A DNA stretch of 64,000 nt from Actinokineospora enzanensis DSM 44649 (GTDB taxonomy: Bacteria > Actinomycetota > Actinomycetes > Mycobacteriales > Pseudonocardiaceae). How positions within the stretch are numbered: position 1 is the first letter of the stretch; each line of letters opens with the position of its first letter. Location of the stretch: contig NZ_KB894405.1 of the NCBI RefSeq assembly GCF_000374445.1, forward strand, positions 401,110-465,109. Direction: 5' to 3'. Positions 1 through 16,435 of the stretch are shown in pieces. The notes beneath the pieces were generated by a model. That model had not been told where the DNA came from and did not search any database. It saw only the letters and a program-made list of their open reading frames with translations. The position numbers were made by a program, and so were the translations under genes.

Positions 1-432
1 GGCAACGGCGGCACCGCCGCGCCGACCATCACCCGGTGCTCGCCCGACCCCGGTCCCGGCACACCGCGCACCGGCATCAAGGCCCTGCAGGACGCGGGCA
101 TCGCGATCACCGGCAGCACGCAGTGGGGGCTCGGGTTCGTGTGCAGGCTGGAGGGCAGGCCGTCGGCCACCGAGACCCTGCCGCGCACCACGAACCCCAC
201 CTACAAGGAGTCCTGCGCGCGGACCCCACCCGCCAACGCCTACTGGGGTTACTGGTACGCCGACGGTTCCGGCACGACCTGGACCTACAGCAGCTACGGC
301 GCCCTCAACCGCAACGTGATCCCCGGCGGTTTCGAGGGTTGGTCGTTCTCGCTGAACAAGACCGCGACCACGAACCCGGCCCCCGGCGTGACCCCGACCC
401 GCCCGGCGTCGACCGGCGGCTTCGTGCGATGA
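1..432 (+). CDS. Secreted protein of ECF-transporter locus, 5' truncated
   Basis: Only the 3' part lies in the window. The frame is open from base 1 and runs 143 codons to a TGA, so the start and any signal peptide are upstream. The visible domain is paralogous to the next gene: both carry GFVCR, then RPSA and ETLP, then a Cys followed by TPPA, YWxYW, WTYS and EGWSFSLN in the same order. That YW/WxY/EGW pattern resembles the SCO2322-type secreted proteins that, as I recall, sit beside ECF transporters in Streptomyces. The stop overlaps the next start (ATGA). A role as an extracellular ligand-binding domain for the adjoining transporter is inferred from context only. It has no C-terminal anchor, unlike its paralogue. 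Confidence 0.8.
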   Translation, partial: GNGGTAAPTITRCSPDPGPGTPRTGIKALQDAGIAITGSTQWGLGFVCRLEGRPSATETLPRTTNPTYKESCARTPPANAYWGYWYADGSGTTWTYSSYGALNRNVIPGGFEGWSFSLNKTATTNPAPGVTPTRPASTGGFVR

Positions 433-1409
433 CGACCAGGTTCGCGGCGCTCGCGGCGGTCACCGCGCTGGTGACGGTCGCGAGCGCCGCCCCGGCGTGG
501 GCGATCGACCAGGGCAAGGGCCTGCCCGGGTTCTGCCCCGGCCCCACCGGCGTGACCGTCGTCGTCGACTTCCAGAGGCTGGGCGGCATCACCATCGTCC
601 GCTGCTACCCGAACGCCGACCCCGGAACCGGGCTGGACGCGCTCAAGGGGGCCGGTTTCCAGATCGCGGGCGCGGCGCGGTGGGGCGAGGGGTTCGTCTG
701 CCGGATCGAGAACCGGCCGTCCGCGGTGGAGACGCTGCCGATCGCCGGGCACGAGGACTACCGCGAGGGGTGCGTCAACACCCCGCCCGCCACCGGGTAC
801 TGGTCGTACTGGCATGCGAGCAATGGCTGCGCGTGGACCTACAGCCAGTGGGGCGTCAAGAACCGGCAGTTCGTCCAGGGCGGTTTCGAGGGTTGGTCCT
901 TCTCGCTCAACGCCACCACGACGTCCAACCCGCAGCCACGCGTCGCCCCCGTCCGTCCGGGCACCGCGGGCCAGCCCTGTGCGGAGGCGGCGGAACCGCC
1001 GCCGAACTCCGACAACCCGGCCGAGCGGCAGCCCGAACCGGCGGCCGCCGCACCCGTGCCGGGCGCCACCGCCCAACCCGGGGTCCGATCGGACGGCGGG
1101 AACGCCGCGCCGGGACAGCCCGGTACGAACGTTCCCGGCACGGCCGTCCCCGATGCGCCGGTGCAGGCCGGGGACGCGCCCGGTGGTGCGTTGCCGCCGC
1201 CTCGGCCGCGGACCGCGTCGGCCGCGCCGGACCCGGCGGCGAACATCGCCTTCACCGGCGGCGAGGACAGGCCGGACGTCAACCGGGTGCTTGAGGACCA
1301 GTCCGGTGCCGACGGTGCCGCGCCCTGGTTCGCCGCCGGGGCCGTGCTGATGCTGGCCGCCGCGACGGCCTACCTCGGTGTGCGGCGCAGACGCGCCGGG
1401 GAGCGGTAG
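429..1409 (+). CDS. Membrane-anchored secreted paralogue, SCO2322-like
   Basis: This 326-residue protein starts at the ATG overlapping the previous stop; longer readings of the frame run into the upstream gene. Residues 1-27 are a signal peptide ending near AWA. Residues about 33-170 repeat the domain of the preceding gene (GFVCR, TPPATGYW, WTYS, EGWSFSLN). A long Pro/Ala/Gly-rich spacer follows, then one hydrophobic helix (WFAAGAVLMLAAATAYLGV) and an Arg-rich tail, so the domain is probably tethered outside the membrane on a flexible stalk. The four Cys in the domain may form disulphides. It abuts the T-component gene (1-base overlap), which argues for a transport function. The ligand cannot be read from the sequence; a DUF4430 / transcobalamin beta-domain relationship is conjecture. 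Confidence 0.85.
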   Translation: MTTRFAALAAVTALVTVASAAPAWAIDQGKGLPGFCPGPTGVTVVVDFQRLGGITIVRCYPNADPGTGLDALKGAGFQIAGAARWGEGFVCRIENRPSAVETLPIAGHEDYREGCVNTPPATGYWSYWHASNGCAWTYSQWGVKNRQFVQGGFEGWSFSLNATTTSNPQPRVAPVRPGTAGQPCAEAAEPPPNSDNPAERQPEPAAAAPVPGATAQPGVRSDGGNAAPGQPGTNVPGTAVPDAPVQAGDAPGGALPPPRPRTASAAPDPAANIAFTGGEDRPDVNRVLEDQSGADGAAPWFAAGAVLMLAAATAYLGVRRRRAGER

Positions 1410-2512
1410 TGCCGGGCGCCACCTACTACCTGCCGCGCGACCTGCACCCGATGGCCTGGTGGGTGTGGGCGCTCGGCCTCGCCACGGCCGCGAGCCGCAC
1501 CACGAACCCGTGGTTGCTGGGGCTGATCCTGGCGGTGGCCGGGTTCGTGGTGGTGGCCCGGCGTGGCGAAGCGCCGTGGGCGCTGGCGTTCCGGATGTAC
1601 CTGTACCTCGGCGCGGTCGTCGTCGGGTTCCGGGTGTTCTTCCGGCTGGTGTTCGGCGGCGGCGAGGGTGCCACGATCGTCCTGCGGCTGCCGGAGATCC
1701 CGCTGCCGGAGTGGGCGGCGGGCATCCGCCTGCTCGGCGACGTGTCGGCGGAGTCGCTGCTCGGCGGGTTCTACGACGGGCTGCGGCTGGCGACCATGGT
1801 GGTGTGCCTCGGCGCGGCCAACGCGCTGGCCAACCCGAAGCGGCTGCTGAAGTCCATGCCGCCCGCGCTCTACGAGGTCGGCACCGCCGTGGTGGTCGCG
1901 CTGTCGGTGTTCCCGCAGCTGGCCGAGAGCGTGGTGCGGGTCCGGCGCGCCCGCAGGCTGCGCGGCGGCGACGGCCGTCGGTTCCACGCGCTGCGGGCGA
2001 TCGTGATCCCGGTGCTGGCCGACGCGCTGGACCGGTCGCTGCGGCTGGCCGCGTCCATGGACTCGCGCGGCTACGGCCGGGCCGGGACGGTCGACCCGCG
2101 CAGGCGCCTGGCCACCGGGGCGTTGATGATCGCCGGTCTGCTCGGCGTGTGCGTCGGCGTCTACGCCACCCTGGACGGGTCGACGCCGCGCGTGCTCGCC
2201 GCGCCCATGCTGGTCCTCGGTGTGGTGGTGGGCCTCGTCGGCTTCCGGGCCGCGGGCGCGCGGGTCCGGCGCACCCGGTACCGGCCGGGCCGCTGGCACC
2301 TGCCGGAGGTGCTCGTCGCGCTGAGCGGGCTCACGGTCGCCGCGGCCCTGGTCGCCACCTCGGCCGTCGACCCCACCGACCTCACCCCGTCCCTGATGGT
2401 CCTGTCCTGGCCCGCGCTGTCGTGGACCCCGCTGGCGGGCGTGCTGCTCGGCGCGCTGCCCGCGGTCCTCGCCCCGCCGCCGGAACCCGCGCTCGGGAGG
2501 GTGCCCGCGTGA
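1409..2512 (+). CDS. ECF transporter T component (EcfT/CbiQ-like permease)
   Basis: A 367-residue integral membrane protein with about eight hydrophobic segments. EcfT proteins form the scaffold that couples two ATPases to a substrate-binding S component. A cytoplasmic basic stretch after the fourth or fifth helix (RVRRARRLRGG) and a later SMDSRGYGR segment match the paired Arg-containing coupling motifs of this family. The GTG start shares its G with the previous stop. The ATPase gene follows with a GTGA overlap, so all components are translationally coupled. It is longer than typical EcfT (about 260) because two extra helices follow the coupling region. Confidence 0.88.
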   Translation: MPGATYYLPRDLHPMAWWVWALGLATAASRTTNPWLLGLILAVAGFVVVARRGEAPWALAFRMYLYLGAVVVGFRVFFRLVFGGGEGATIVLRLPEIPLPEWAAGIRLLGDVSAESLLGGFYDGLRLATMVVCLGAANALANPKRLLKSMPPALYEVGTAVVVALSVFPQLAESVVRVRRARRLRGGDGRRFHALRAIVIPVLADALDRSLRLAASMDSRGYGRAGTVDPRRRLATGALMIAGLLGVCVGVYATLDGSTPRVLAAPMLVLGVVVGLVGFRAAGARVRRTRYRPGRWHLPEVLVALSGLTVAAALVATSAVDPTDLTPSLMVLSWPALSWTPLAGVLLGALPAVLAPPPEPALGRVPA

Positions 2513-4110
2513 TCGAACTCGACCGGGTCAGCTTCTGGTACCACGGGCAGCCGGAGCCGGTGCTGTCCGAGGTGTCCCTGTCCATCGGGGAGGGCGAGCT
2601 GGTGCTGCTCGCCGGCCGCACCGGGGTGGGCAAGTCGACGCTGCTTGGCACGCTCAACGGGCTGGTACCGCACTTCACCGGCGGCCACCTGGACGGCGAG
2701 GTGTCGGTCGACGGGGTGAGCACCCGGTCCCGGCCGCCGCGCGAGTTCGCGCACCTGGTGGGCGTGGTCGGGCAGGACCCGCTGGCCGGGTTCGTCACCG
2801 ACACGGTGGAGGAGGAGCTCGCCTACGGCATGGAGCAGCTCGGCGTCGAGCCGCCGGTGATGCGGCGGCGGGTGGAGGAGACGCTGGACCTGCTCGGGAT
2901 CGCGGACCTGCGCGGCCGGGCGCTGCGGACCCTGTCCGGCGGGCAGCAGCAGCGGGTGGCGGTCGGTTCGGTGCTGACCACGCACCCCAAGGTGCTGGTG
3001 CTGGACGAGCCGACCTCGGCGCTGGACCCGACGGCGGCCGAGGACGTGCTGGCGACCCTGGCGCGGCTCGTGCACGACCTGGGGACGACGGTGCTGCTGG
3101 CCGAACACCGGATGGAACGGGTGGTCCCGTTCGTCGACCGGATGGTCTACCTGACCGGGGACGGGGGAGTGGTCGACGGGGACCCGGCGGAGGTGCTGCG
3201 GGACACGCCGGTCGCCCCGCCGATCGTGGAGCTGGGGCGGCTTGCCGGTTGGGACCCGCTGCCGCTGTCGGTGCGGGACGCGCGTCGTCGGGCGGGGCCG
3301 TTGCGGTCTTCGCTGTCGGTTCCGGCGCGGCCGTCCCGGGTCGACGGGGCGGAGCTGCTGTCGGTGCGGGATGTCGTCGTCCGCTATGGGCCGATCGTGG
3401 CCGTGCGCGGGGTCGACCTGGACGTGCGCGCCGGTGAGGTGCTGGCGATGATGGGGCGCAACGGGTCCGGCAAGTCGTCGCTGCTGTGGGCGGTGCAGGG
3501 ATCGGGGCCGCGGCAGAGCGGCCGGGTCGATGTCGACGGGGTCGACCCGACGAGTATGTCCACTGTGGAGGCTCGGAAGGTCGTCGGGCTGGTCCCGCAG
3601 ACCGCGAGCGACCTGCTGTACCTGGACACGGTCGCGGCCGAGTGCGCGGCCGCCGATCGGGAGTCCGGGGCCGCCGCGGGTACCTGCCGTTCGCTGCTGG
3701 ACCGGCTGGCACCGGAGGTCGACGCGGCGCGACATCCGCGTGATCTCTCGGAGGGGCAACGGTTGGCCCTGGTGCTGGCCGTGCAGTTGACCGCCGAGCC
3801 GCGCGTGCTGCTGTTGGACGAGCCCACGCGCGGCCTCGACTACCCGGCGAAGTCCGCGCTGGGGCGAATGATCGCCGCCATCGCCGCCGAGGGGCGCGCG
3901 GTCGTCGTGGCCACCCATGACGTCGAGTTCGTGGCGGCCATCGCGGACCGGGTGCTGGTCATGGCCGAGGGCGAGATCGTCTCCGCCGGGCCCACCGCCC
4001 GGGTCCTCGGCGACTCGCCCGCCTTCGCGCCGCAGGTGGCCAAGATCCTCGGCCCGGACTGGCTCACCGTCGCCGAGGTCGCCGCCGCCCGTCCGGCGGA
4101 GCCCCGATGA
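2509..4110 (+). CDS. ECF transporter fused double ATPase (EcfA1-EcfA2)
   Basis: A 533-residue protein with two ABC ATPase domains in one chain. Domain 1 has Walker A GRTGVGKS at about 36-43, signature LSGGQQQR at 142 and Walker B VLVLDEP at 162. Domain 2 has Walker A GRNGSGKS at 316, a divergent signature LSEGQ at 413 and Walker B VLLLDEP at 433. Fused A components are common in actinobacterial ECF systems. The GTG start lies in the GTGA overlap with the T component; the open frame extends further upstream but overlaps that gene completely. The stop overlaps the S component's ATG. It powers import by hydrolysing ATP on the cytoplasmic face. Confidence 0.92.
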   Translation: MIELDRVSFWYHGQPEPVLSEVSLSIGEGELVLLAGRTGVGKSTLLGTLNGLVPHFTGGHLDGEVSVDGVSTRSRPPREFAHLVGVVGQDPLAGFVTDTVEEELAYGMEQLGVEPPVMRRRVEETLDLLGIADLRGRALRTLSGGQQQRVAVGSVLTTHPKVLVLDEPTSALDPTAAEDVLATLARLVHDLGTTVLLAEHRMERVVPFVDRMVYLTGDGGVVDGDPAEVLRDTPVAPPIVELGRLAGWDPLPLSVRDARRRAGPLRSSLSVPARPSRVDGAELLSVRDVVVRYGPIVAVRGVDLDVRAGEVLAMMGRNGSGKSSLLWAVQGSGPRQSGRVDVDGVDPTSMSTVEARKVVGLVPQTASDLLYLDTVAAECAAADRESGAAAGTCRSLLDRLAPEVDAARHPRDLSEGQRLALVLAVQLTAEPRVLLLDEPTRGLDYPAKSALGRMIAAIAAEGRAVVVATHDVEFVAAIADRVLVMAEGEIVSAGPTARVLGDSPAFAPQVAKILGPDWLTVAEVAAARPAEPR

Positions 4111-5027
4111 GCGCCGAGCCGGTGGACCGTGAGCGGGCCGGTTCCGCTGTGGGCGGGTCGCGTCGGGTCCGGACCTGGGGGCGGGCCGGTCAGGTGGTCC
4201 GGTTGGGACCGCGGTCGGCGGTCGTGCTCACCCTGGCGTCGCTCGGTGGGCTGATGATGTTCGTGTGGCCGTTGCTGGTCCGGGTGCAGCCGCAGAGCAC
4301 GCAGCACGGACCGGACGCGCCGTTCGTGTTCCTGGGGATCCTGCCGGTCCTCATCGTCATCGTGCTCGCCGAGCTGTCCGAGGGCGGCATGGACGCGAAG
4401 GCGCTGGCGATGCTGGGCGTGCTGTCGGCGGTCAACGCGGCGCTGCGGCCGCTGGGGGCGGGCACGGCGGGCATCGAGGTGGTGTTCTTCATGCTCGTGC
4501 TCGCCGGTCGGGTCTTCGGGGCCGGGTTCGGTTTCGTGCTCGGGTGCACCTCGCTGTTCGCCTCCGCGTTGCTGACCGCCGGGGTGGGGCCGTGGCTGCC
4601 GTTCCAGATGCTGAGTTCGGCCTGGATCGGCATGGGCGCCGGGTTGCTGCCGCGCCGGGTCACCGGCAAGGCGGAGATCGCCATGCTGGTCGGCTACGGC
4701 ATCCTGGTGTCCTATCTGTTCGGTTTCCTGATGAACCTGTGGTTCTGGCCGTTCATCACCGGCGCCGAGGTGCCCTACCACCACGGCCACATCTCCTACG
4801 TGCCCGGCGACCCGGTGCTGGACAACCTGCACCGCTTCGCCGTGTTCACCCTGCTGACGTCCACCGCGGGCTGGGACACCGGTCGGGCCGTCACCAACAC
4901 GATCGCGATCCTCGTGGTCGGCCCCGCCGTCCTGGCCACGCTCCGCCGGGCCGCGCGCCGCGCCTCCTATGGGGCGCCGGTGACGTTCGGCCACAACGGA
5001 AACACCCCCGGAGAAAGGTTCCTATGA
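4107..5027 (+). CDS. ECF transporter S component
   Basis: A 306-residue polytopic protein that should bind the substrate and dock onto the T/A module. About 50 polar N-terminal residues precede at least six hydrophobic segments, from SAVVLTLASLGGLMMFVW through FGFLMNLWFWPFITG to TIAILVVGPAVLATL. The run GIEVVFFMLVLAGRVFG and the PFQMLSSAWIGMGAGLLP segment are typical of group II S components. It overlaps the ATPase gene by ATGA and the following secreted toroid gene by another ATGA. Substrate specificity is not readable. The locus make-up, with a secreted toroid and paired surface proteins, suggests a large extracellular ligand such as a cobamide; that is inference. Confidence 0.85.
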   Translation: MSAEPVDRERAGSAVGGSRRVRTWGRAGQVVRLGPRSAVVLTLASLGGLMMFVWPLLVRVQPQSTQHGPDAPFVFLGILPVLIVIVLAELSEGGMDAKALAMLGVLSAVNAALRPLGAGTAGIEVVFFMLVLAGRVFGAGFGFVLGCTSLFASALLTAGVGPWLPFQMLSSAWIGMGAGLLPRRVTGKAEIAMLVGYGILVSYLFGFLMNLWFWPFITGAEVPYHHGHISYVPGDPVLDNLHRFAVFTLLTSTAGWDTGRAVTNTIAILVVGPAVLATLRRAARRASYGAPVTFGHNGNTPGERFL

Positions 5028-6046
5028 GATTCAAGGCAGTACTCGCGTGTGTCACCGCCGCCACCGTGGTCGCCACCGCCGTGCCCGCGGCCGCCGCGAC
5101 CCACGCCCCGGCGGACGCCGCGTCCGGCTGGCTGGCCCGCCAGTTCGTGCACGGCGACCACCTGGAGACCGACTTCGGCGGCACCAGCTACCCGGACCCG
5201 GGTCTGACCCTCGACGCCGTGTTCGCCTTCGCCGCCACGCGCACTGCCGACGACTATGGTTCCGCGGCGCTGACCTGGTTGGCGCAGCCCGCCAACCTCA
5301 CCGGCTACATCGGCGACGGCACCACCGAAGCGTACGCGGGCGCCACCGCCAAGACCGCGCTCGCCGTCGAGGTCCGCGGCGGCGACCCGGCCGCGTACGG
5401 CGGGGTCGACCTGGTCGCCCGGCTGAACTCGCTGCTCACCCCGTCCGGCCGCTACTCCGACCGCTCGGCCTACGGCGACTACAGCAACGCCTTCACCCAG
5501 TCGCTCGCGCTCATCGCGTTGGACCGCACCCCCTCGGGTGCCCCGGTGTCCGCGGTGGACTACACCGCCGCGACCCAGTGCCCCGACGGCGGTTTCCCGA
5601 TCGTGCTCGACGCGCCCACCTGCGCAGGCGACACCGACGCCACCGCCATGGTCACCCAGGCGCTGCTCGCCACCGGCCGCACCGCCGCCGCGCGGCAGGG
5701 GCTGGCCTGGCTGAAGTCCAAGCAGCAGAACGACGGCGGCATCGCGGCGGGCGACGGCTCCGGCACGCCCAACGCCAACACCACCGGCCTCGCGGGCCAG
5801 GCGTTCCGCGCGGGGCTGCGCGTCGTGCCCGCGCTCAAGGCGCACCAGTTCGTCCTGTCGTTGCGCCAGACCTGCACCGCGCCCGCCGCCCAGCGCGGCG
5901 CGATCGCCTACGACGCCACGGGATACAACCCGTCCACGGTCACCCGCGCCACCACCCAGGCGATCCTCGGCCTGCGCGGCGCGCCCCTGGGCGGTCTGAC
6001 ATCCTCGGGCTCCGCGACCGGCGACCCGGTCCTGTCCTGCCCCTGA
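5024..6046 (+). CDS. Secreted prenyltransferase/squalene-oxidase-repeat (alpha/alpha toroid) protein
   Basis: A 340-residue exported protein starting at an ATG eight bases after GAGAAAGG. Residues 1-25 are a signal peptide ending AAA. The rest reads as repeated helical hairpins with recurring Ala-rich helices and Asp/Gly turns (DYSNAFTQSLALIAL, DTDATAMVTQALLAT, NTTGLAGQAFRAG, TRATTQAILGL), as in terpene-cyclase-type and transcobalamin/intrinsic-factor alpha6/alpha6 barrels. The cyclase DxDD acid motif is not visible, so a binding role is likelier than catalysis. Four Cys in the second half could form disulphides. It is the last gene of the ECF operon and is followed by a strong terminator, which supports a role as the extracellular binder. 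Confidence 0.82.
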   Translation: MRFKAVLACVTAATVVATAVPAAAATHAPADAASGWLARQFVHGDHLETDFGGTSYPDPGLTLDAVFAFAATRTADDYGSAALTWLAQPANLTGYIGDGTTEAYAGATAKTALAVEVRGGDPAAYGGVDLVARLNSLLTPSGRYSDRSAYGDYSNAFTQSLALIALDRTPSGAPVSAVDYTAATQCPDGGFPIVLDAPTCAGDTDATAMVTQALLATGRTAAARQGLAWLKSKQQNDGGIAAGDGSGTPNANTTGLAGQAFRAGLRVVPALKAHQFVLSLRQTCTAPAAQRGAIAYDATGYNPSTVTRATTQAILGLRGAPLGGLTSSGSATGDPVLSCP

Positions 6047-6142: not shown

Positions 6143-7105
6143 TCAGAACCAGGATCGCGGGTGGGCGGTGAAGTAGCTCCAGATCGCCGTGGTGGCGTTG
6201 ATCTGGATGGTGTGCGTGCCCGGTCCGCTGTCGGCCGCGCCCGGCCAGGTGTGGCCGTGGCCCAGGATCTTGTAGTGCACGACGTCCACGGAGCTCTGGC
6301 AGGACGACCAGGCGTACCGGATGACCTCGGTGTCCAGGACGGTCTGCGTCGGGCCCGTCGTGCAGTTGTCGCGGACCGCCCAGCCTGCCAGCCAGGTCTG
6401 GATCGCGGGCAGGGTCTCGCCGTGGCTGTCCAGGTCACCGTCGTAGTCGACGATGGTGTCGTTCGTGCCGTGGAAGTCGATGATCGGGACCCCGGGCGGG
6501 TTGGCCCCGCAGCCGGACTGCGTGGCGTCGTAGAAGGCGCCCGCGACGATGCCGAAGGCGGCGATGCGGTTGGGCAGCTGGCAGGCGAGCAGGCCGACGA
6601 AGCCGCCGCCGTTGGACTTGCCCGCCGCGAAGATCCGGGACTTGTCGATGCACAGCTGGGACTGCAGCTTGTCGAGCAGGTCGGCGACGAACTGGACGTC
6701 GTCGACGCCGGTCGCGTTGTAGGGCGCGCCCTGCCAGGCGGTCCCGTTGTCCGTGCCGAGCACGCCGGTCGGGTAGGCCAGAACGGCGTCCGCGCTGTCG
6801 AAACCGGTGTAGGACTCGATGTCGGCTGCGGTGCCCTTGTGCCCGTGGAACACCATCACCAGCGGCTTCAGCTGGCCCGGCACGTAGGTGGAGGGCATGT
6901 GGACCAGGTAGCTCCTGGTCAGGCCCCCGGAGCTGATGGTCTGCGCGGTGGTCTGCCCGAGCGTCAGCGGGGACGTCGTGGCCGAGCAGCCGGTCGAGTC
7001 GACGGCGGAGTTGTGCGCCGGTGCGGCGGATGCCTGCTGCGGGATGGTCAGTGCGCCGAGTGCGAGAGTGAGCGCGAGGGCTGGGGCGAGCCTGCGATGT
7101 CTCAT
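6143..7105 (-). CDS. Secreted PHB depolymerase / feruloyl-esterase-like hydrolase (LpqC type)
   Basis: A 320-residue alpha/beta hydrolase beginning with signal peptide MRHRRLAPALALTLALGAL and cleavage near ASA. HGHKG forms the oxyanion region, GKSNGGG holds the nucleophile Ser, FHGTNDT the acid Asp and GHGHTWPG the His. This is the order of the esterase/PHB depolymerase family (CE1-like), whose members hydrolyse extracellular polyesters or feruloyl/acetyl esters on plant polymers. AGAFYDATQSGC and paired Cys suggest disulphides in the mature protein. The ATG at 7105 is preceded by GAAGGTGG; the frame runs 19 codons further upstream without support. It stands alone, convergent with the ECF operon. 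The actual ester cleaved is unknown. Confidence 0.88.
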   Translation of the reverse strand: MRHRRLAPALALTLALGALTIPQQASAAPAHNSAVDSTGCSATTSPLTLGQTTAQTISSGGLTRSYLVHMPSTYVPGQLKPLVMVFHGHKGTAADIESYTGFDSADAVLAYPTGVLGTDNGTAWQGAPYNATGVDDVQFVADLLDKLQSQLCIDKSRIFAAGKSNGGGFVGLLACQLPNRIAAFGIVAGAFYDATQSGCGANPPGVPIIDFHGTNDTIVDYDGDLDSHGETLPAIQTWLAGWAVRDNCTTGPTQTVLDTEVIRYAWSSCQSSVDVVHYKILGHGHTWPGAADSGPGTHTIQINATTAIWSYFTAHPRSWF

Positions 7106-7517
7106 GGCCACCTTCGGTGATGGGGGACCTGGGTCCCGGGAGGATCGTTCCGCGGACACCACGCCCCCGGGCCTGCCCCTGGTTGCAGCACATTTCGATC
7201 TTGCTCCGGACGGCCGCTCGGCTCGTCCGCCCGGCCCACGGCCGGGTTGCCCGAACCGGCGGAAGCCCCGATGGTCCGTGGTGGCGCGAGGTCCGATGTG
7301 GTCATGTGCGACGGTCTTGCCCGGTCGGGTGGCCGCCGCGCGTGCAATGGACCAAGTGAGTGGTGCCCGGCAGCGGCGGGCTCACCGGCTGTCGTGACGA
7401 CTGCTCGTTTCCGGCATTCCCCTCTCGCGCAACTGGATCCACGCCGCCCGGCTTGGCCACACTGCTGCCTGTCGGGGACGCGAGCACCAGTCGAGAACGG
7501 TTCGAGGCAGGAGAACA
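7106..7517. other. 412-base divergent intergenic region
   Basis: This stretch separates the leftward esterase from the rightward repeat-protein gene. It must hold promoters for both. I see no convincing gene. From about 7382 it matches the region upstream of the second repeat-protein gene, so the duplication included the promoter. Confidence 0.5.
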
Positions 7518-8075
7518 ATGCGCAAGATCCTGGGTTTGGTCGCCAGTGCCGCGTGCGCGCTGGCCCTGGCGGTGGTGGGTTCGGGTTCCGCGAACGCGGG
7601 CACGGAGGCGGTCCTGGGCACGTGGGCGTGCAGTGTGCCCGCAGGCAGGACGTACACGCGCGTGCAGAGCCAGCTGGGGGTGTGCAGCCCCACCGGCTTC
7701 GCGAACTCCTACTACATCGAGACACCCGTGAGCGGGCTGTGGGCCTGTACCGTCCCGTCCGGCTTCAGCTACTCGCGCGTGCAGAGTCAGTTGAACGTGT
7801 GCAGCACGAGTGGTTTCGCGAACTCGTACCTGCTGGAGTCCCCGCGCGGTGGCGTGTGGATGTGCAACGTGCCTTATGGCTACACGTACTCGCGCGTGCA
7901 GAGCCAGTTGAACGTCTGTAGCACGAGCGGTTTCGCGAACTCCTACCTCGTCGAGACGCCCCGCTCCGGTCTGTGGGCGTGCAGTGTTCCGGCGGGGTTC
8001 ACCTACTCGCGGGTGCAGAGTCAGTTGAACGTGTGCAGCACGAGTGGTTTCGCGAACTCGTACCTGCTCGTCTGA
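7382..8075 (+). repeat. Tandem duplication unit, copy 1
   Basis: Copy 1 of a gene-plus-upstream duplication. Matching begins at TCACCG and continues through GTCGTGAC and TGCTCGTTTCCGG, then the whole coding region, which is the same length in both copies. The distance from the first shared base to the ATG is 136 here and 124 in copy 2, so one small indel has occurred. Confidence 0.8.
7518..8075 (+). CDS. Secreted Cys-repeat protein, copy 1 (unknown function)
   Basis: A 185-residue protein with GCAGGAGAAC directly before the ATG. Residues 1-28 are a signal peptide ending SANAG. The mature part is four near-identical units of 39 residues. Each starts with W-x-C, then VPxGxxYSRVQSQL, a second Cys (VCS) and SGFANSY, so the mature chain has eight Cys in a regular two-per-repeat spacing; in the last unit the sequence stops after NSYLLV. 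The pattern suggests a small disulphide-stabilised repeat fold or lectin-like trefoil, but I do not recognise the family. A tandem paralogue follows 251 bases downstream. Nothing nearby indicates a substrate. Confidence 0.88.
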   Translation: MRKILGLVASAACALALAVVGSGSANAGTEAVLGTWACSVPAGRTYTRVQSQLGVCSPTGFANSYYIETPVSGLWACTVPSGFSYSRVQSQLNVCSTSGFANSYLLESPRGGVWMCNVPYGYTYSRVQSQLNVCSTSGFANSYLVETPRSGLWACSVPAGFTYSRVQSQLNVCSTSGFANSYLLV

Positions 8076-8202: not shown

Positions 8203-8884
8203 TTCACCGACCGTCGTGACGGTTGCTCGTTTCCGGTAATGCCCGCACAGAACGGACTCGACGGCCACATCTCCCCGACACACTCTGCTCGTCCGGAGCG
8301 TGATCATCCTTCAAGCGGGGAGAGCAATGCGCAGGATCGTGAGTCTGGTGGCGAGCGCCGCGTGCGCGCTGGCGTTGGCGATGGTGGGTTCGGGATCGGC
8401 GGACGCCACGACCGAGGGGGTGCTGGGTACGTGGGCGTGCAGCGTGCCCGCGGGCAAGGTCTACACGCGGGTGGAGAGCAGGCTGGGCGTGTGCAGTCCC
8501 AGTGGGTTCGCCAACTCGTACTACATCGAGACCCCGGTGTCCGGCCTGTGGGCCTGTTCCGTTCCGTATGGCTTCAGCTACTCGCGGGTGGAGAATCGCC
8601 TGGCCGTGTGCAGTCCCAGCGGTTTCGCCAACTCCTACCTGCTGGAGGCGCCGCGCGGTGGTGTGTCGATGTGCGACGTCCCGGACGGTTACACGTACTC
8701 GCGTGTGGAGAGCCGCTTGGCCGTCTGCAGCCCCAGCGGTTTCGCGAACTCCTACTACGTGGAGACTCCCCGCGCGGGCCTGTGGGCCTGCTCGGTCCCG
8801 TACGGCTTCACCTACTCGCGGGTGGAAAGCCGTCTGGCCGTGTGTAGTCCTAGCGGTTTCGCGAACTCCTATCTGCTCGTCTAG
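8203..8884 (+). repeat. Tandem duplication unit, copy 2
   Basis: Second copy of the unit starting at 7382. Upstream identity is highest over GTCGTGAC through TGCTCGTTTCCGG, consistent with a conserved promoter or operator. The coding parts have diverged mainly at synonymous sites and at a few repeated positions (VQSQLN to VESRLA). Confidence 0.8.
8327..8884 (+). CDS. Secreted Cys-repeat protein, copy 2 (unknown function)
   Basis: A 185-residue paralogue of the preceding gene, with the same signal peptide plan (MRRIVSLVASAACALALAMVGSGSADA) and the same four 39-residue W-x-C/V-C-S repeats. The chosen ATG follows GCGGGGAGAGCA; a GTG nine codons earlier is unsupported and would spoil the signal peptide. 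Within this copy the RVESRLAVCSPSGF core is nearly uniform across repeats 2-4. In copy 1 the equivalent RVQSQLNVCSTSGF core is uniform. Each gene is therefore homogenised internally, as expected from gene conversion or repeat expansion within a copy. Net charge differs (Glu/Arg here, Gln/Asn there), so the copies may have different partners. A strong terminator follows. Confidence 0.88.
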   Translation: MRRIVSLVASAACALALAMVGSGSADATTEGVLGTWACSVPAGKVYTRVESRLGVCSPSGFANSYYIETPVSGLWACSVPYGFSYSRVENRLAVCSPSGFANSYLLEAPRGGVSMCDVPDGYTYSRVESRLAVCSPSGFANSYYVETPRAGLWACSVPYGFTYSRVESRLAVCSPSGFANSYLLV

Positions 8885-9154: not shown

Positions 9155-9799
9155 ATGACTGCGGTGGACGAGGGGTTCGCGGCTCGGCTGCGGACCGGGA
9201 CCCGGGACGAGCACGAGCGGGCGGAGCGGTCGACGTTCATCGAGGCGTTGCTGGAAGGTCGGCTCGGGCGGGAAGCCTACGCCGGGCTCCTGGGGCAAAG
9301 CCACCTCTTCTACACCGTGCTCGAAGCCGCGGGCGAGGCGTGGCGGGACGATCCGGTGGTCGGCGGGTTCGTCATCGACGGGCTGCTGCGCAAGGACGCC
9401 CTCGAACGTGACCTCACCCACCTGCTCGGCCGGGACTGGCGTGACCACGTCACCCCGCTCGCGGCCACGAAGTCCTATGTGGACCGCCTGGCCGAGGTCT
9501 GCTTCACCGACCGGGGCGCGTTCGTCGCCCACCACTACACGCGCTACCTGGGGGACCTGTCCGGTGGGCAGGTCATCCGGCGGCGGATGCGGGAGGTGTA
9601 CGGGTTCGATGAGGACGGCGTGCGGTTCTACGTGTTCGACCGGGTCGCCAAGCCCAAACCGTTCCGCGACCACTACCGGTCGCTGCTCGACGACGCGCCG
9701 TGGCGCGAGGGCGAGCGGGAGGCCCTGGTCGAGGAGGCCAACCTGGCGTTCCGGCTGAACCGGGCCGTCTTCGTCGACCTGGCCGCCGTGTACTGCTGA
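9155..9799 (+). CDS. hmuO: Biliverdin-producing haem oxygenase
   Basis: A 214-residue protein, the usual length for bacterial HmuO. It opens the haem ring with O2 and reductant, giving biliverdin, CO and iron in the cytoplasm. The proximal ligand His is at 20 within DEHERAE, and the distal-helix GDLSGGQ sits at 133-139, both diagnostic. Other family marks are FYTVLEAAGE and KPFRDHYRSLLD. The ATG follows GGTGGGCT. An iron box lies upstream and the haem-uptake genes downstream, so it should release iron from imported haem. It is separated from htaA by 172 bases with a second iron box, so it is probably a separate transcript. Confidence 0.95.
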   Translation: MTAVDEGFAARLRTGTRDEHERAERSTFIEALLEGRLGREAYAGLLGQSHLFYTVLEAAGEAWRDDPVVGGFVIDGLLRKDALERDLTHLLGRDWRDHVTPLAATKSYVDRLAEVCFTDRGAFVAHHYTRYLGDLSGGQVIRRRMREVYGFDEDGVRFYVFDRVAKPKPFRDHYRSLLDDAPWREGEREALVEEANLAFRLNRAVFVDLAAVYC

Positions 9800-9909
9800 C
9801 CGTTGCCGGACAAGGGGTTCCGCGGTCGGGACCCCGGCTTCGGCATGCCCGGAATACCACTGTGGACAGTGTGGCGGGCGTCGCCCTTGCCAATACCGCG
9901 ACCGAGTAA

Positions 9910-9928
9910 TTAGGTTAGCCTTACCTAA
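9910..9928 (+). promoter_or_regulatory. Near-perfect IdeR/DtxR iron box upstream of htaA
   Basis: TTAGGTTAGCCTTACCTAA differs from the 19-base palindromic consensus at one position. It lies 43 bases before the htaA start, and flanking AAT/ATT extends the dyad. This is the stronger of the two iron boxes. Confidence 0.88.
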
Positions 9929-9971
9929 TTGACCGGCATGGGTCCGCGCGGTCGCACGCAGGAGGAAACAC

Positions 9972-11300
9972 ATGGCAAGACCACACGCGGCCAGAGCGGT
10001 CGCCGTCGGTGCGGCGGCCGTTCTCGCCGCCACCGTCCTGGGCACCACGCCCGCCGCGGCGGCCACCGCGAACGTCACCGACGCGACGTTCGTCTGGGGC
10101 CTCAACGGGTACGCGCAGGTCGGCATCTTCGGGCCGTGGACCTACAAGGACCTGACCGGCACCGCGTCCATCCTCACCGGATCGGTGTCCGGCGGGGCGC
10201 AGACCGCCTACGCGGTCGACCCGGTCCCGGCCACCTCGATGCCGCCGTCGACGCCGCAGAAGACGCCCAACGCGGTCAGGTTCACCGCGGGCACCGGCAC
10301 GGTCGACCCGGCCACCGGCGCGGGCAAGCTGACCTTCACCGGCAGCTACACCGTCAACGCCTACCCGCCGCAGTTCAACGCGCCCAACGAGATCTACAAG
10401 AACCCGGTCGTGACCGTGGCCGCGGACGGCTCCGGCTCGCTGTCGGTGGAGTACAGCCTGGGCGCGGGCACGGACATCTCCGGCAACCCGACCTCGGCGC
10501 AGGACTTCGGCCGCCTGACCCTGGTCACCTACGACGCGGGCTCGCTCAGCGGCCTGTCCGCCACCGGTTTCCGGGTCACCCCGGACTACCAGGGCGTGCA
10601 GGTCGACGTGCCGGACGGCACCGCGCAGACGCGCGGCTGTGCCGGCGGAACCGGCTGGTGGGGCTCCTGGTCGCCGGACTTCGTCAAGACCGTGCCCACC
10701 TCGATCCGTCCGCACTTCTATTCGACCGGCTGCGGCGGCAACCAGGACTACAAGCCGCCGCTGCCCTTCGACATCGGCTACACCGTCGCCACGACGCCGG
10801 AGCAGCCGCAGCCGTCCGCGAACGAGCAGGACGTGCGGGTGACCGTGCCGGAGAAGGAACAGCCGGGCGAGTTCGTCTGGACCATCGACGGCGGCAACGG
10901 CCTGGTCGACCTCGGCACCGCGAAGGCCGCGGGTGACCACTACCTGGCCACCGGCTCGATCAACCCGGTCCGGGTGACCGACACCCGCGCCGGTGCCCCG
11001 ACGTGGTCGGTGTCCGCGCAGGTCAGCGACTTCTCGGCGAACGGCACCTCGTTCGACGGCAAGTACCTGGGCTGGGCGCCGAAGGCCACCGAGAACTCGG
11101 GTGGCGCGGTGGCCGGTGCCGCCGTGGCGTCCGGTTTCGACGGCGGCACGGGCCTCAAGCAGCCCGCGACGCTGGGCAGCGCGGCACTCGACCACGCGAA
11201 GGGCTCGGTGCTGCTCGGCGCCGACCTGCAGCTGAAGGTCCCGGCGAGCGTGGGTGCGGGGACCTACGACGCCACGTTGACCCTCACTGCGCTGAGTTAG
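9972..11300 (+). CDS. htaA: Secreted HtaA-domain haem-binding protein with WxL-like C-terminus
   Basis: A 442-residue exported protein; the signal peptide ends near AAAA at about residue 34. GGAGGAAACAC precedes the ATG. Residues about 38-260 are an HtaA domain (FVWGLNGYAQVGIFG at the start, then GTGTVDPATGAGKLTFTGSY and GRLTLVTYDA). In Corynebacterium, HtaA domains bind haem outside the cell and pass it to HmuT. Residues about 290-442 read like a WxL-type beta domain (VWTIDG, VTDTR, WSVSAQVSDF, GLKQPATLGSA, TLTLTAL). There is no membrane anchor or sorting signal, so surface retention could rely on the WxL-partner protein encoded next. It is expressed behind an iron box. Confidence 0.9.
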   Translation: MARPHAARAVAVGAAAVLAATVLGTTPAAAATANVTDATFVWGLNGYAQVGIFGPWTYKDLTGTASILTGSVSGGAQTAYAVDPVPATSMPPSTPQKTPNAVRFTAGTGTVDPATGAGKLTFTGSYTVNAYPPQFNAPNEIYKNPVVTVAADGSGSLSVEYSLGAGTDISGNPTSAQDFGRLTLVTYDAGSLSGLSATGFRVTPDYQGVQVDVPDGTAQTRGCAGGTGWWGSWSPDFVKTVPTSIRPHFYSTGCGGNQDYKPPLPFDIGYTVATTPEQPQPSANEQDVRVTVPEKEQPGEFVWTIDGGNGLVDLGTAKAAGDHYLATGSINPVRVTDTRAGAPTWSVSAQVSDFSANGTSFDGKYLGWAPKATENSGGAVAGAAVASGFDGGTGLKQPATLGSAALDHAKGSVLLGADLQLKVPASVGAGTYDATLTLTALS

Positions 11301-11432
11301 TCCTCTCCCGCCACCCGCCCCCACATCCCCGCCCGGCATCGTCCCCGACCCTGGCACCCGCACCGTCACCGCGGCGCCGGGAACGTCACCGGACAAGCCA
11401 CCGCGGGCTGGTGGACACGGTCTGGTCCCCCT

Positions 11433-11471
11433 GGTTGTGGGCGCCATCGCTGCCTGATGGCGCCCACAACC
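11433..11471 (+). terminator. Hairpin between htaA and the rest of the haem operon
   Basis: A perfect 16-base-pair stem (11433-11448 with 11456-11471) with a seven-base loop lies only 27 bases before the next start codon. It is either a terminator giving partial read-through, so that htaA is made in excess over the transporter, or a 3' stabiliser. Confidence 0.75.
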
Positions 11472-11498
11472 GCCCTCTCCCCGCACTGGATTCCCACC

Positions 11499-12485
11499 AT
11501 GACTCGCTTCCTCGCCGCGCTCACCACCGCGGTCCTGCTCGCCGTCGGCCTGCCCGGCCTCGCCGCCGCGCAGAACGTCACCTGGGGCGTGCGTCCCGTC
11601 GACTCCGCGCTCGGCACCGACCGGCCGAACTTCGCCTACTCCGTCGCGCCCGGCGCCGCCCTGGGCGACGCGCTCCTGGTCAGCAACCACGAGCAGCGCG
11701 CGCTCACCTTCGCCGTGTACGCCGCCGACGCCTTCACGACCTCGTCCGGCCGGCTGGACCTCAAGCCCGCGGGCGAGGCCCCGGCCGACGCGGGCGCGTG
11801 GGTGCGTTTCGACACGCCGACCGTCACCGTCCCGGCCGGACAGACCGTCGCCGTGCCGTTCACCGTCACCGTTCCGGCCGACGCCACGCCCGGCGACCAC
11901 AGCGGGGGAGTGGTCACGTCGCTGCGCGTGGAGTCCGGGTCCGGGATCACCGTCGACCGGCGGCTGGGTTCGCGGATGCATCTGCGGGTGGCCGGTGTGC
12001 TGACGCCGTCGGTCGAGGTGCGCGGCCTCACCGTGAACTACGACGGGACGCCGAACCCCGTCGGCAAGGGCACGACGAGCGTGGGCTACACGATCGTCAA
12101 CACCGGCAACACCCGGCTGACCGCCACGCACGGGGTGCGGATCGAGGGGCCGTTCGGCTGGTTCGCGACCGACGCGGCGGTCGAGCCGTTGCCGGAGCTG
12201 CTGCCGGGCGAGAGCGTCACGAGGAAGGCCGCGGTCGGTTCCGTACCGGCGGGCCGGTTGTCGGCGGCGGTCACGGTGACGGCTGCCGTTCCGGGCGGGG
12301 CGGCACTGCCTGTCGTGACCAGCTCCGCTGCTGCTGTGGCGATCCCGTGGTCCGTGGTGGTGTGTCTGCTGCTTCTCGTCTGCCTCGCGCTCGCGTTGCG
12401 TGCACGGGGTAAGGCGAAGTCGGCGGGGGAGAAGGACCGGATCGAGGCGGCCGTGGCGGCGGCGTTGCGGGAGCGTGAGGCGTGA
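11499..12485 (+). CDS. DUF916 / WxL-partner peptidoglycan-domain membrane protein
   Basis: A 328-residue protein with a signal peptide ending AAA, two Ig-like beta domains, one transmembrane helix (WSVVVCLLLLVCLALALRA) and a 30-residue charged cytoplasmic tail. Features of the DUF916 family are the WGVRPVDSALGTDRPNFAYSV start, the VSNHEQRALTFAVYAADAF segment and PADATPGDHSGGVV. In Firmicutes such proteins are encoded with WxL proteins and help bind them to peptidoglycan. Here it directly follows an HtaA protein with a WxL-like C-terminus, so it may hold that haem receptor at the surface (inference). The ATG at 11499 is preferred over an upstream ATG inside the hairpin. It overlaps hmuT by GTGA. 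Confidence 0.85.
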   Translation: MTRFLAALTTAVLLAVGLPGLAAAQNVTWGVRPVDSALGTDRPNFAYSVAPGAALGDALLVSNHEQRALTFAVYAADAFTTSSGRLDLKPAGEAPADAGAWVRFDTPTVTVPAGQTVAVPFTVTVPADATPGDHSGGVVTSLRVESGSGITVDRRLGSRMHLRVAGVLTPSVEVRGLTVNYDGTPNPVGKGTTSVGYTIVNTGNTRLTATHGVRIEGPFGWFATDAAVEPLPELLPGESVTRKAAVGSVPAGRLSAAVTVTAAVPGGAALPVVTSSAAAVAIPWSVVVCLLLLVCLALALRARGKAKSAGEKDRIEAAVAAALREREA

Positions 12486-15356: not shown

Positions 15357-16435
15357 CAAAGGCTTTCGGTGCGGTGGCGGCGGCGTTGGTCGCGGCCACG
15401 CTGCTGCCGGGCACGGCGTCCGCCGCCGCGCGGGTGAGCGTGTCGGTGTCCACCGCGGACCCCGACTACGCGACGCAGATCGACGTGCGCGGCACCGGTT
15501 TCCAGTCCGTCCCCAAGGCGCACGGCGGCATCTACGTCCTGTTCGGCTGGGTGTCCGACGGCGCATGGCAACCCAGCAAGGGCGGCGCGGCGGGCACCAC
15601 CTACCGCTACGTCCAGGACAGCGAGGCCAAGGACAACAACGGCTACCAGCGCTTCGTCTCCTTTCCCGGCAGCGACACCGCGACCAGCGCCAACGGCGGC
15701 GTGGTGTCCGCGGACGGCGCGTGGGCCGCGCGGATGGTCATCCCCGGCGCCCGGTTCAAGGCCGTGGACCGCACCGGGAACACCTCCGAGGTCGACTGCG
15801 CCAAGGTCACCTGCGGGATCATCACCATCGGCGCGCACGGCGTCGTCAACCCCACCAACGAGACCTTCACCCCGATCCGCTTCGCCGCCCCCGCCGGCGG
15901 TCAGGCGCAGACACCACAGACTCAGACACCACAGACTCGGGCCCCGGCAACCCAGCCCGCGCCCGATACCAACGCGGTGCCGAACACCGATGCCGTGCCG
16001 GGAGCCGCCACCGCCCTGCCCGCGCGGGCGGCGACCGTGTCGGCCGCCTCGGGTGCGGCCGCGGCCGGGGGGACGGTCACGGTCACCGGGTCCGGGTTCG
16101 CCGCCGACGAGCAGGTGAACGTGGTGCTGCACTCCGACCCGCTGTTCCTGGCCCCTGCCCACTCCGACGCCGCGGGCGCGATCGCCTACACCGCCGACCT
16201 CCCGGCCGACGTGCCCGCGGGCGCCCACACCCTGGAGTTCACCGGCGCGAAGTCGGGCGCGGTCGGGTCGGTCGCCCTGACGGTCTCCGCTGCCGCCGCG
16301 CCCACCGCGGCCCCGGCCGCCGAGCCCGTCAGCGAGACGTCCAGCTGGTGGCCTGCCGTCGTCGCCGTGGGCGTGGTCCTGCTGGTGGTCGTCGTGGTCG
16401 TCGTGCTGCGCAAGCGAAAGAAGGTCGACGCGTGA
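15347..16435 (+). CDS. Membrane-anchored Ig-like surface protein of haem locus
   Basis: A 362-residue protein with a strong ribosome site (GAGAGGAGGAAGA) inside the end of hmuV. A signal peptide ends near ASA at residue 25. Domain 1 (about 27-185) begins with an Ig-like strand pattern (VSVSTADPDYATQIDVRGTGF) and contains GGIYVLFGWV and a C-x5-C pair. A Thr/Pro/Gln linker with direct QTPQTQTP repeats follows. Domain 2 (about 225-315) is a second Ig-like fold (GGTVTVTGSGFAADEQVNVVLHS). One transmembrane helix and KRKKVDA end the chain. Position between hmuV and an htaA gene argues for a role in haem capture or relay, comparable to the membrane-anchored ChtA/HtaC-type proteins. Haem binding itself is not demonstrated by any motif I can see. 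Confidence 0.82.
   Translation: MFVAKAFGAVAAALVAATLLPGTASAAARVSVSVSTADPDYATQIDVRGTGFQSVPKAHGGIYVLFGWVSDGAWQPSKGGAAGTTYRYVQDSEAKDNNGYQRFVSFPGSDTATSANGGVVSADGAWAARMVIPGARFKAVDRTGNTSEVDCAKVTCGIITIGAHGVVNPTNETFTPIRFAAPAGGQAQTPQTQTPQTRAPATQPAPDTNAVPNTDAVPGAATALPARAATVSAASGAAAAGGTVTVTGSGFAADEQVNVVLHSDPLFLAPAHSDAAGAIAYTADLPADVPAGAHTLEFTGAKSGAVGSVALTVSAAAAPTAAPAAEPVSETSSWWPAVVAVGVVLLVVVVVVVLRKRKKVDA

Follow-up and report, generated by a model that had tools for sequence, protein, structure and literature searches.

This locus of Actinokineospora enzanensis DSM 44649 raises the question of which substrate is taken up by an ECF importer encoded together with secreted toroid and beta-domain proteins, and what those proteins contribute. 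Many vitamin ECF transporters were reportedly predicted by Rodionov et al. in 2009 (J Bacteriol), and to our knowledge ECF systems lack extracellular binders. The operon is located at the start of the window, the whole stretch of 64,000 nucleotides that was analysed. An earlier note had described a single overlapping operon with six listed genes, and this was borne out, as these are on the same strand and overlap by 1-4 bases. The operon does not start at base 1, and genes A and B begin upstream of the window. The whole operon encodes three toroids and two beta domains; two of the toroids (gene A) and a riboswitch are outside the stretch on which that note was based. The features, in window or L003 coordinates, are:

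L003:13047-13192 (window -3063 to -2918), upstream of gene A: AdoCbl riboswitch RF01482 (local scan with all Rfam families)
L003:13184-15943, before gene B: gene A, two toroid domains (mechanical ORF of 919 aa; likeliest start GTG 13250)
1..432, plus strand: gene B, 3' part, small secreted beta-domain protein, SCO2322-like (SCO2322_fam E 8.7e-5, below cut-off)
429..1409, plus strand: gene C, secreted beta-domain protein, predicted to be surface-anchored (SCO2322_fam E 1.8e-6, below cut-off)
504..962, plus strand: beta domain of C, transcobalamin-like beta-grasp (SLBB/DUF4430-like) fold in a structure model
1409..2512, plus strand: gene D, ECF T component, CbiQ family (Pfam CbiQ E 7.3e-14, over cut-off)
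2509..4110, plus strand: gene E, fused double ECF ATPase (Pfam ABC_tran, two stretches, E 2.8e-51)
4107..5027, plus strand: gene F, S component, predicted corrinoid-binding membrane subunit (ECF-ribofla_trS E 2.5e-4, below cut-off)
5024..6046, plus strand: gene G, secreted single alpha/alpha toroid, SCO2321-like (NCBIfam SCO2321_fam E 3.3e-27, below cut-off)

The ECF T component and fused double ATPase were confirmed by the matches to CbiQ and to two ABC_tran stretches, all over the Pfam cut-offs; gene E also matches ECF_ATPase_1 (E 5.5e-83) with 278.5 bits, under the cut-off of 315. From its position and below-cut-off matches, gene F is predicted to be the S component. Its best Pfam match is ECF-ribofla_trS and it also matches the FolT family (E 3.7e-5, below cut-off), and a profile of 21 F relatives matched no solved chain in the PDB at E <=1. 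The two secreted proteins B and C are paralogues, as had been claimed, with 49% identity and an E of 3.8e-45 in an own-genome search with C, which matched itself and one other place only, the B region, where the aligned stretch extends beyond the stop of B. Gene B starts at window -170 (L003:15940) and has a signal-like N-terminus, and no anchor was seen in either B or G. Gene C has a Pro-rich linker, an IAFTG motif and a hydrophobic segment at its C-terminus (Gram_pos_anchor E 0.16, below cut-off), and gene A combines an LPLTG motif with a hydrophobic C-terminal stretch. A tRNA-like call at 978-1059, inside C on the opposite strand, was disregarded as it has no proper anticodon.

The earlier note proposed a search for a cobalamin riboswitch just upstream of base 1; one is present, 3 kb farther away, at the true operon start. 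The RF01482 match covers the whole model (positions 1-149) with an E of 2e-7 in 551 bases, its score of 46.4 bits is below the Rfam gathering score of 50, and its end is 58 bases upstream of the likely GTG start of gene A. It was not among the matches listed from an RF00174 scan of the own genome, in which 150 of 681 candidates were scored. In relatives, an RF00174 match is present <=10 kb upstream, on the same strand, for 27 of 34 S places in 23 of 29 genomes (expected, 0.16), and in 6 of the genomes with such a match it is the only one listed. Upstream of the remaining seven places (G246, G101, two in G035, G002, G004 and G240) there is no riboswitch among the matches listed; the contig of G004 has only 3.9 kb before S. 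A riboswitch above cut-off was detected upstream of S in 11/20 and 8/14 loci of two scanned sets. One relative (L036) has an RF01482 match of 57.3 bits, above Rfam's cut-off, and another (L034) an AdoCbl-II riboswitch above cut-off. Toroid genes outside the operon are also associated with cobalamin riboswitches, the gene in Actinophytocola oryzae (L035) having its own and that in Amycolatopsis roodepoortensis (L037) being divergent from one. The riboswitch is supported on the basis of sequence and of repeated position, and apparently controls the operon.

The S component is present in 155 of the 296 genomes sampled of the class. Amongst loci that were long enough, S, T, ATPase, beta domain and toroid are found within 9 kb in 58/66 and 17/19 loci of two sets, and of the same 66 loci seven have a beta domain without a detected toroid and one has neither. 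As the gene set is kept in distant relatives, chance is ruled out. Toroid proteins carry signal-like N-termini and anchors, and toroid and beta domain are in a single ORF in 9 of 101 loci; both orders occur, toroid then beta (the transcobalamin order) in L048 and the reverse in others, and in L092, which is counted among the fusions, an anchor-like segment separates the two domains and the ORF may really be two merged genes. This locus comparison used mechanical ORF starts, and its protein lengths are not gene models. The S component is commoner in genomes without CobI/CbiL (95/134) than in those with it (60/162), as is expected of an importer; the host has CobI/CbiL and so probably makes B12 itself.

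In animal transcobalamin and intrinsic factor, an alpha6/alpha6 toroid precedes a small beta domain in a single chain and the corrinoid is sandwiched between them. The fold check proposed for C bore this likeness out for the beta domain (504-962), as its predicted model has the transcobalamin/intrinsic-factor beta-domain fold in Foldseek, where no match reached E <=0.001. The model has two strands, a helix and then additional strands, an order in keeping with the beta-grasp and post-helix hairpin given for the SLBB clade in excerpts of Burroughs et al. 2007 (PMC1796856). The beta profile aligned with DUF4430 in hhalign (probability 84.2, E 7.3e-6, 97 collinear columns; 0.1 for two negative controls), and in L023 the gene after the toroid gene matches DUF4430 above Pfam's cut-off. 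DUF4430 matches by Pfam in 3 of 73 beta domains, weakly, and for the window beta domain Pfam gives no match at all up to E 10; the beta profile found no PDB chain by sequence up to E 10.

The toroid part of a fused relative, L038, was modelled confidently as an alpha/alpha toroid, and the fold evidence is from this relative. A fold search against transcobalamin had been proposed; in Foldseek the nearest structures are class II terpene cyclases, and transcobalamin is lower in the list (ranks 36 and 43, E about 2e-3). VIA-align of the fused model returned toroid enzymes, with no transcobalamin among the best 50 matches listed. The fold is common to terpene cyclases and sugar enzymes and is therefore not specific to transcobalamin, and at a pTM of 0.74 the placement of the two domains relative to each other is not established. 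A profile of 84 toroid relatives matches squalene-hopene cyclase (E 3.7e-34) and 59 PDB chains up to E 10, none of them transcobalamin; Pfam Cobalamin_bind matches 16 of the 84, weakly, and gene G matches SQHop_cyclase_C with an E of 0.036, below cut-off. Catalytic terpene-cyclase residues would have told against the earlier note's reading, and DxDD, the catalytic motif of class II terpene cyclases, is found at the aligned place in 0/84 toroids. Toroid stretches of related operons match NCBIfam SCO2321_fam (NF053823; cut-off 300), with 488.6 bits in L031 and 322.5 bits in L024, and their beta stretches, in the pieces scored, reach 80.9 bits with SCO2322_fam (NF040672), just under the cut-off of 85. 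The family names state no function, and the window's own proteins are below cut-off.

We consider it probable that this is a vitamin B12 (corrinoid) uptake operon. Low intracellular adenosylcobalamin would permit expression through the AdoCbl riboswitch, which is the direction of control in known riboswitches. Outside the membrane, a corrinoid would be captured jointly by the toroids of A and G and the beta-grasp domains of B and C, secreted or surface-anchored, with the ligand presumably held between the two kinds of domain, the arrangement of animal transcobalamin. The ligand may then be handed to F, as family knowledge suggests, and F would reorient through the membrane, driven by D and E, as in other ECF importers. 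The transcobalamin-type folds and the toroid/beta partnership are supported; the earlier note's reading, in which the ligand may be captured outside the cell and fed to S, gained support from the riboswitch, the beta fold and the lack of DxDD, and we infer binding and the clamp. We lean towards the view that actinomycetes have a split, multi-copy surface transcobalamin, in which separate, partly wall-anchored toroids and beta-grasp lids assemble round a corrinoid and then pass it to S.

An unlikely alternative is a B12 importer in which the surface domains do not clamp the ligand, and store or buffer corrinoid in the wall, remove its upper ligand or exclude rivals, with S binding free B12 as in CbrT. 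The riboswitch evidence fits this equally well, three toroids and two beta domains do not make a simple 1:1 clamp, and some operons have no detected toroid. ECF-CbrT of Lactobacillus delbrueckii, a cobalamin ECF importer which likewise has T and ATPase parts, and in whose system S components use one common module, transports cobalamin with no extracellular binder mentioned in excerpts of PMC5997447; the F profile matches no solved chain at E <=1. Natural fusions in both orders, including L048, nevertheless suggest that toroid and beta domain act as a unit. It is highly improbable that the operon encodes a CbiMNQO-like cobalt importer under B12 control with surface metal-capturing proteins, even though the T component and ATPase are of the CbiQ/CbiO family, cobalamin riboswitches control cobalt transporters too (excerpts of PMC3766115) and 3u7z, a solved bacterial relative, is titled putative metal-binding protein. 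Against this, Pfam gives no CbiM match for F at E <=1, the weak matches that F does have are to vitamin S components, the beta domain matches those of B12 carriers, and F is commoner in genomes without CobI/CbiL, whose cobalt need for B12 synthesis is less. It is scarcely credible that the toroids act on a lipid or terpenoid as secreted enzymes resembling class II terpene cyclases, and are merely co-regulated with B12 uptake, given the absence of DxDD, the signal-like N-termini and anchors, the fusions to a transcobalamin-type beta domain and the toroid genes with their own riboswitches outside the operon.

The split clamp that we favour shares a transcobalamin-type beta-grasp domain and an alpha/alpha toroid (modelled in L038) with animal transcobalamin. 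It differs from transcobalamin, intrinsic factor and haptocorrin in that toroid and beta domain are separate proteins of unequal copy number, the toroid and beta profiles do not match PDB chains of these carriers (E up to 10), and the partner is an ECF importer, whereas that of the animal proteins is receptor-mediated endocytosis. As toroid and beta domain are not in one chain, we did not file the window system as transcobalamin. The transcobalamin-like SLBB clade, as described in the excerpts of PMC1796856, comprises bacterial secreted, sometimes anchored beta-grasp domains with predicted B12 scavenging, toroid fusions in both possible orders, in many cases a further SLBB paralogue, and operons with a CbiO-like ATPase and CbiQ; the clade is presented there as having arisen in Gram-positive bacteria, with animals acquiring it from low-GC Gram-positives. 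The window operon resembles it in its CbiQ/CbiO-like genes, toroid and DUF4430 profile relationship, but is split, most members here are missed by DUF4430, and the excerpts mention neither riboswitch nor S component. Their text does not contain Streptomyces or Nocardi*, and the alignment species list has Corynebacterium glutamicum and Kineococcus radiotolerans, with the SLBB branch not specified. Excerpts on the ECF module of freshwater acI actinobacteria (PMC5301498) do not mention surface binders; our sample includes small genomes (G172, G215).

Among the matches listed from openly licensed PMC papers, none concerned an actinobacterial split transcobalamin or SCO2321/SCO2322 as B12 proteins, and the sole one naming SCO2321 is, in the part available, on a transdermal peptide (PMC9237094). 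Identifying B12 transporters in many gut genomes is called an open problem in an excerpt of PMC6593275. The function proposed here for SCO2321/SCO2322-like proteins is B12 capture. If this is correct, both families and their relatives would become B12-capture proteins, encoded with an S component found in more than half of the genomes sampled, and the ECF importer would have extracellular partners dedicated to substrate binding. For work on how animal B12 transport arose, it would also supply bacterial relatives of transcobalamin and intrinsic factor that are soluble and open to testing. If the split clamp is true, a bacterial two-part clamp would seem to be the older form, with the animal B12 carriers as one fused offshoot of it.

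The six overlapping genes described by the earlier note are all real, and their overlaps are present in the sequence of the 8.1 Mb host genome, where the window spans C3:401110-465109. Reading the upstream DNA in the extended locus (L003, in which L003:16111 is window base 1) placed base 1 within gene B and not at the start of the operon, which runs riboswitch-A-B-C-D-E-F-G. The operon ends at gene G, as the next gene lies on the opposite strand and is depolymerase-like.

Features bounding the operon
L003:13047-13192, plus strand, match to the AdoCbl riboswitch family RF01482
L003:13184-15943, gene A (best-placed start GTG 13250, behind TGAGGA)
L003:15940, start of gene B, overlapping the stop of gene A
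Window 6143-7162, strand opposite to the operon, gene resembling a polyhydroxyalkanoate depolymerase (146.9 bits against a cut-off of 150)

Three toroid domains and two transcobalamin-type beta domains are encoded per single ECF transporter. The product of gene A carries two of the toroids and, after them, LPLTG and a hydrophobic stretch at the C-terminus. Anchor-like C-terminal segments are found in A (LPLTG) and C (IAFTG), and these are presumably anchor-type sorting motifs; the signal is not classical, because each motif sits some 55 residues from the end. B and G have signal-like N-termini only.

Beyond the depolymerase-like gene, two tandem paralogous secreted proteins (window 7518-8075 and 8300-8884, plus strand) each hold about four 39-residue repeats, with a 117-base spacing and six copies listed; they gave partial Pfam matches only and may represent an unnamed repeat family. 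At 9155-12485 (plus strand) a heme oxygenase (Pfam E 2.6e-57) precedes a protein with an HtaA-like match under the cut-off (E 0.0033). Lying near the B12 operon, the two are likely a heme-uptake set; after them comes a WxLIP_PGBD-domain protein (11457-12485, plus strand).

The earlier note had suggested looking for a cobalamin riboswitch just upstream of base 1; a match was found upstream of gene A, not directly before base 1. This RF01482 match had E 2.1e-6 in a scan of 5.6 kb and E 2e-7 on 551 bases, covering model positions 1-149 with six positions flagged as non-standard pairs, and its 46.4 bits fall under the Rfam gathering score of 50. The case for riboswitch control is carried by the relatives. 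Thirty genomes were surveyed at E <= 0.001 (G241 was dropped, and 29 genomes had listed S places), and a same-strand RF00174 match lay no more than 10 kb upstream of S at 27 of 34 places, in 23 of the 29 genomes, against 0.16 expected from the count of RF00174 matches and genome sizes, with at least 11 genome-scan rows below the family cut-off. No RF00174 match was found upstream at the other seven (G246, G101, two in G035, G002, G004, G240). By curated cut-offs only, a cobalamin-type riboswitch precedes S, in the same orientation, in 11 loci of a set of 20 that overlaps the previous count, and in 8 of 14 loci chosen from a set of 80 (the best 80 matches, hence a selection); L035, L040, L041, L047, L058 and L100 had none over cut-off upstream of S.

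Loci with a riboswitch over cut-off, S strand
20-locus set: L015, L018-L021, L025-L028, L032, L034
Chosen loci: L036, L037, L044, L052, L066, L072, L097, L111

Two of the 14 also have a further toroid gene that lies outside the operon and has a separate cobalamin riboswitch.

Riboswitches of separate toroid genes
L035:15658-15791, preceding a toroid ORF that starts at 15881
L037:2017-2142, minus strand, overlapping the mechanical ORF start, the toroid domain beginning about 110 bases further on

These gene-riboswitch units (L035:15658-16918, L037:983-2142) are either separate from the operon or face away from it. In L018, L097 and L025 the operon holds two toroid-beta units, together with two cobalamin riboswitches in its own orientation (in L025 one is over cut-off and the other below), an arrangement that would fit a duplication of the surface module along with its riboswitch.

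Of the 296 genomes in the sample of the class, 155 have a match to F, as do 58 of 105 genera; the 80 loci, from named genomes, include Amycolatopsis, Actinomadura, Streptomyces, Nocardioides, Micromonospora, Kribbella and Tessaracoccus. Domains were sought with iterated profiles over 101 loci (the window's own and both sets). Where at least 6 kb before S and 3 kb after it were available, beta, toroid, T component and ATPase fell within 9 kb in 58 of 66 loci of the larger set and 17 of 19 of the smaller, in which two lacked the toroid. In the larger set seven had beta with no toroid detected (L045, L056, L060, L073, L075, L081, L113) and one had neither; in the seven, the toroid may have diverged or be encoded at another site in the genome, or the system may be of a beta-only form. 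Nine ORFs, in 9 of 101 loci, join both domains, with beta first in L015, L038, L043, L046, L047, L090 and L093 and toroid first in L048 and L092 (the latter doubtful). In L024, L029 and L031, which form a second and more distantly related group, pieces of the operons score above the cut-off for SCO2321_fam and just below that for SCO2322_fam. Other C-terminal segments follow the toroid in genes downstream of S in L088, L100, L102 and L114, and in L090, where the terminal repeats of the beta-toroid ORF resemble S-layer homology domains.

The riboswitch, ECF parts, transcobalamin-type beta fold, toroid fold, partnership and fusion are all computational results. A corrinoid would be the ligand of the surface proteins, clamped between toroid and beta domain and handed over to F. 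Reorientation of the S component is a feature of ECF importers. F may reorient likewise, judging from ECF literature that includes the excerpted text of PMC5997447.

This kind of system is already known as a prediction, since Burroughs et al. 2007 (PMC1796856) predicts B12 scavenging by the transcobalamin-like SLBB domains of bacteria, which are joined to toroids in both orders and encoded alongside CbiO and CbiQ, and PMC5301498 (acI) places an ECF module behind cobalamin riboswitches. The former also predicts that the animal domains were acquired from low-GC Gram-positives. The matches listed from the CC-licensed PMC literature include none on the split form of actinobacteria or its fold, on its linkage to a riboswitch, or on SCO2321/SCO2322 as B12-capture families.

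F is commoner in genomes without CobI/CbiL (95 of 134) than in those with it (60 of 162), both counts covering 296 genomes under identical handles. Fisher's test gives p = 7e-9, a value to be read as no more than indicative, because the genomes are related. As CobI/CbiL is present in the window's host, corrinoid import there probably spares synthesis.
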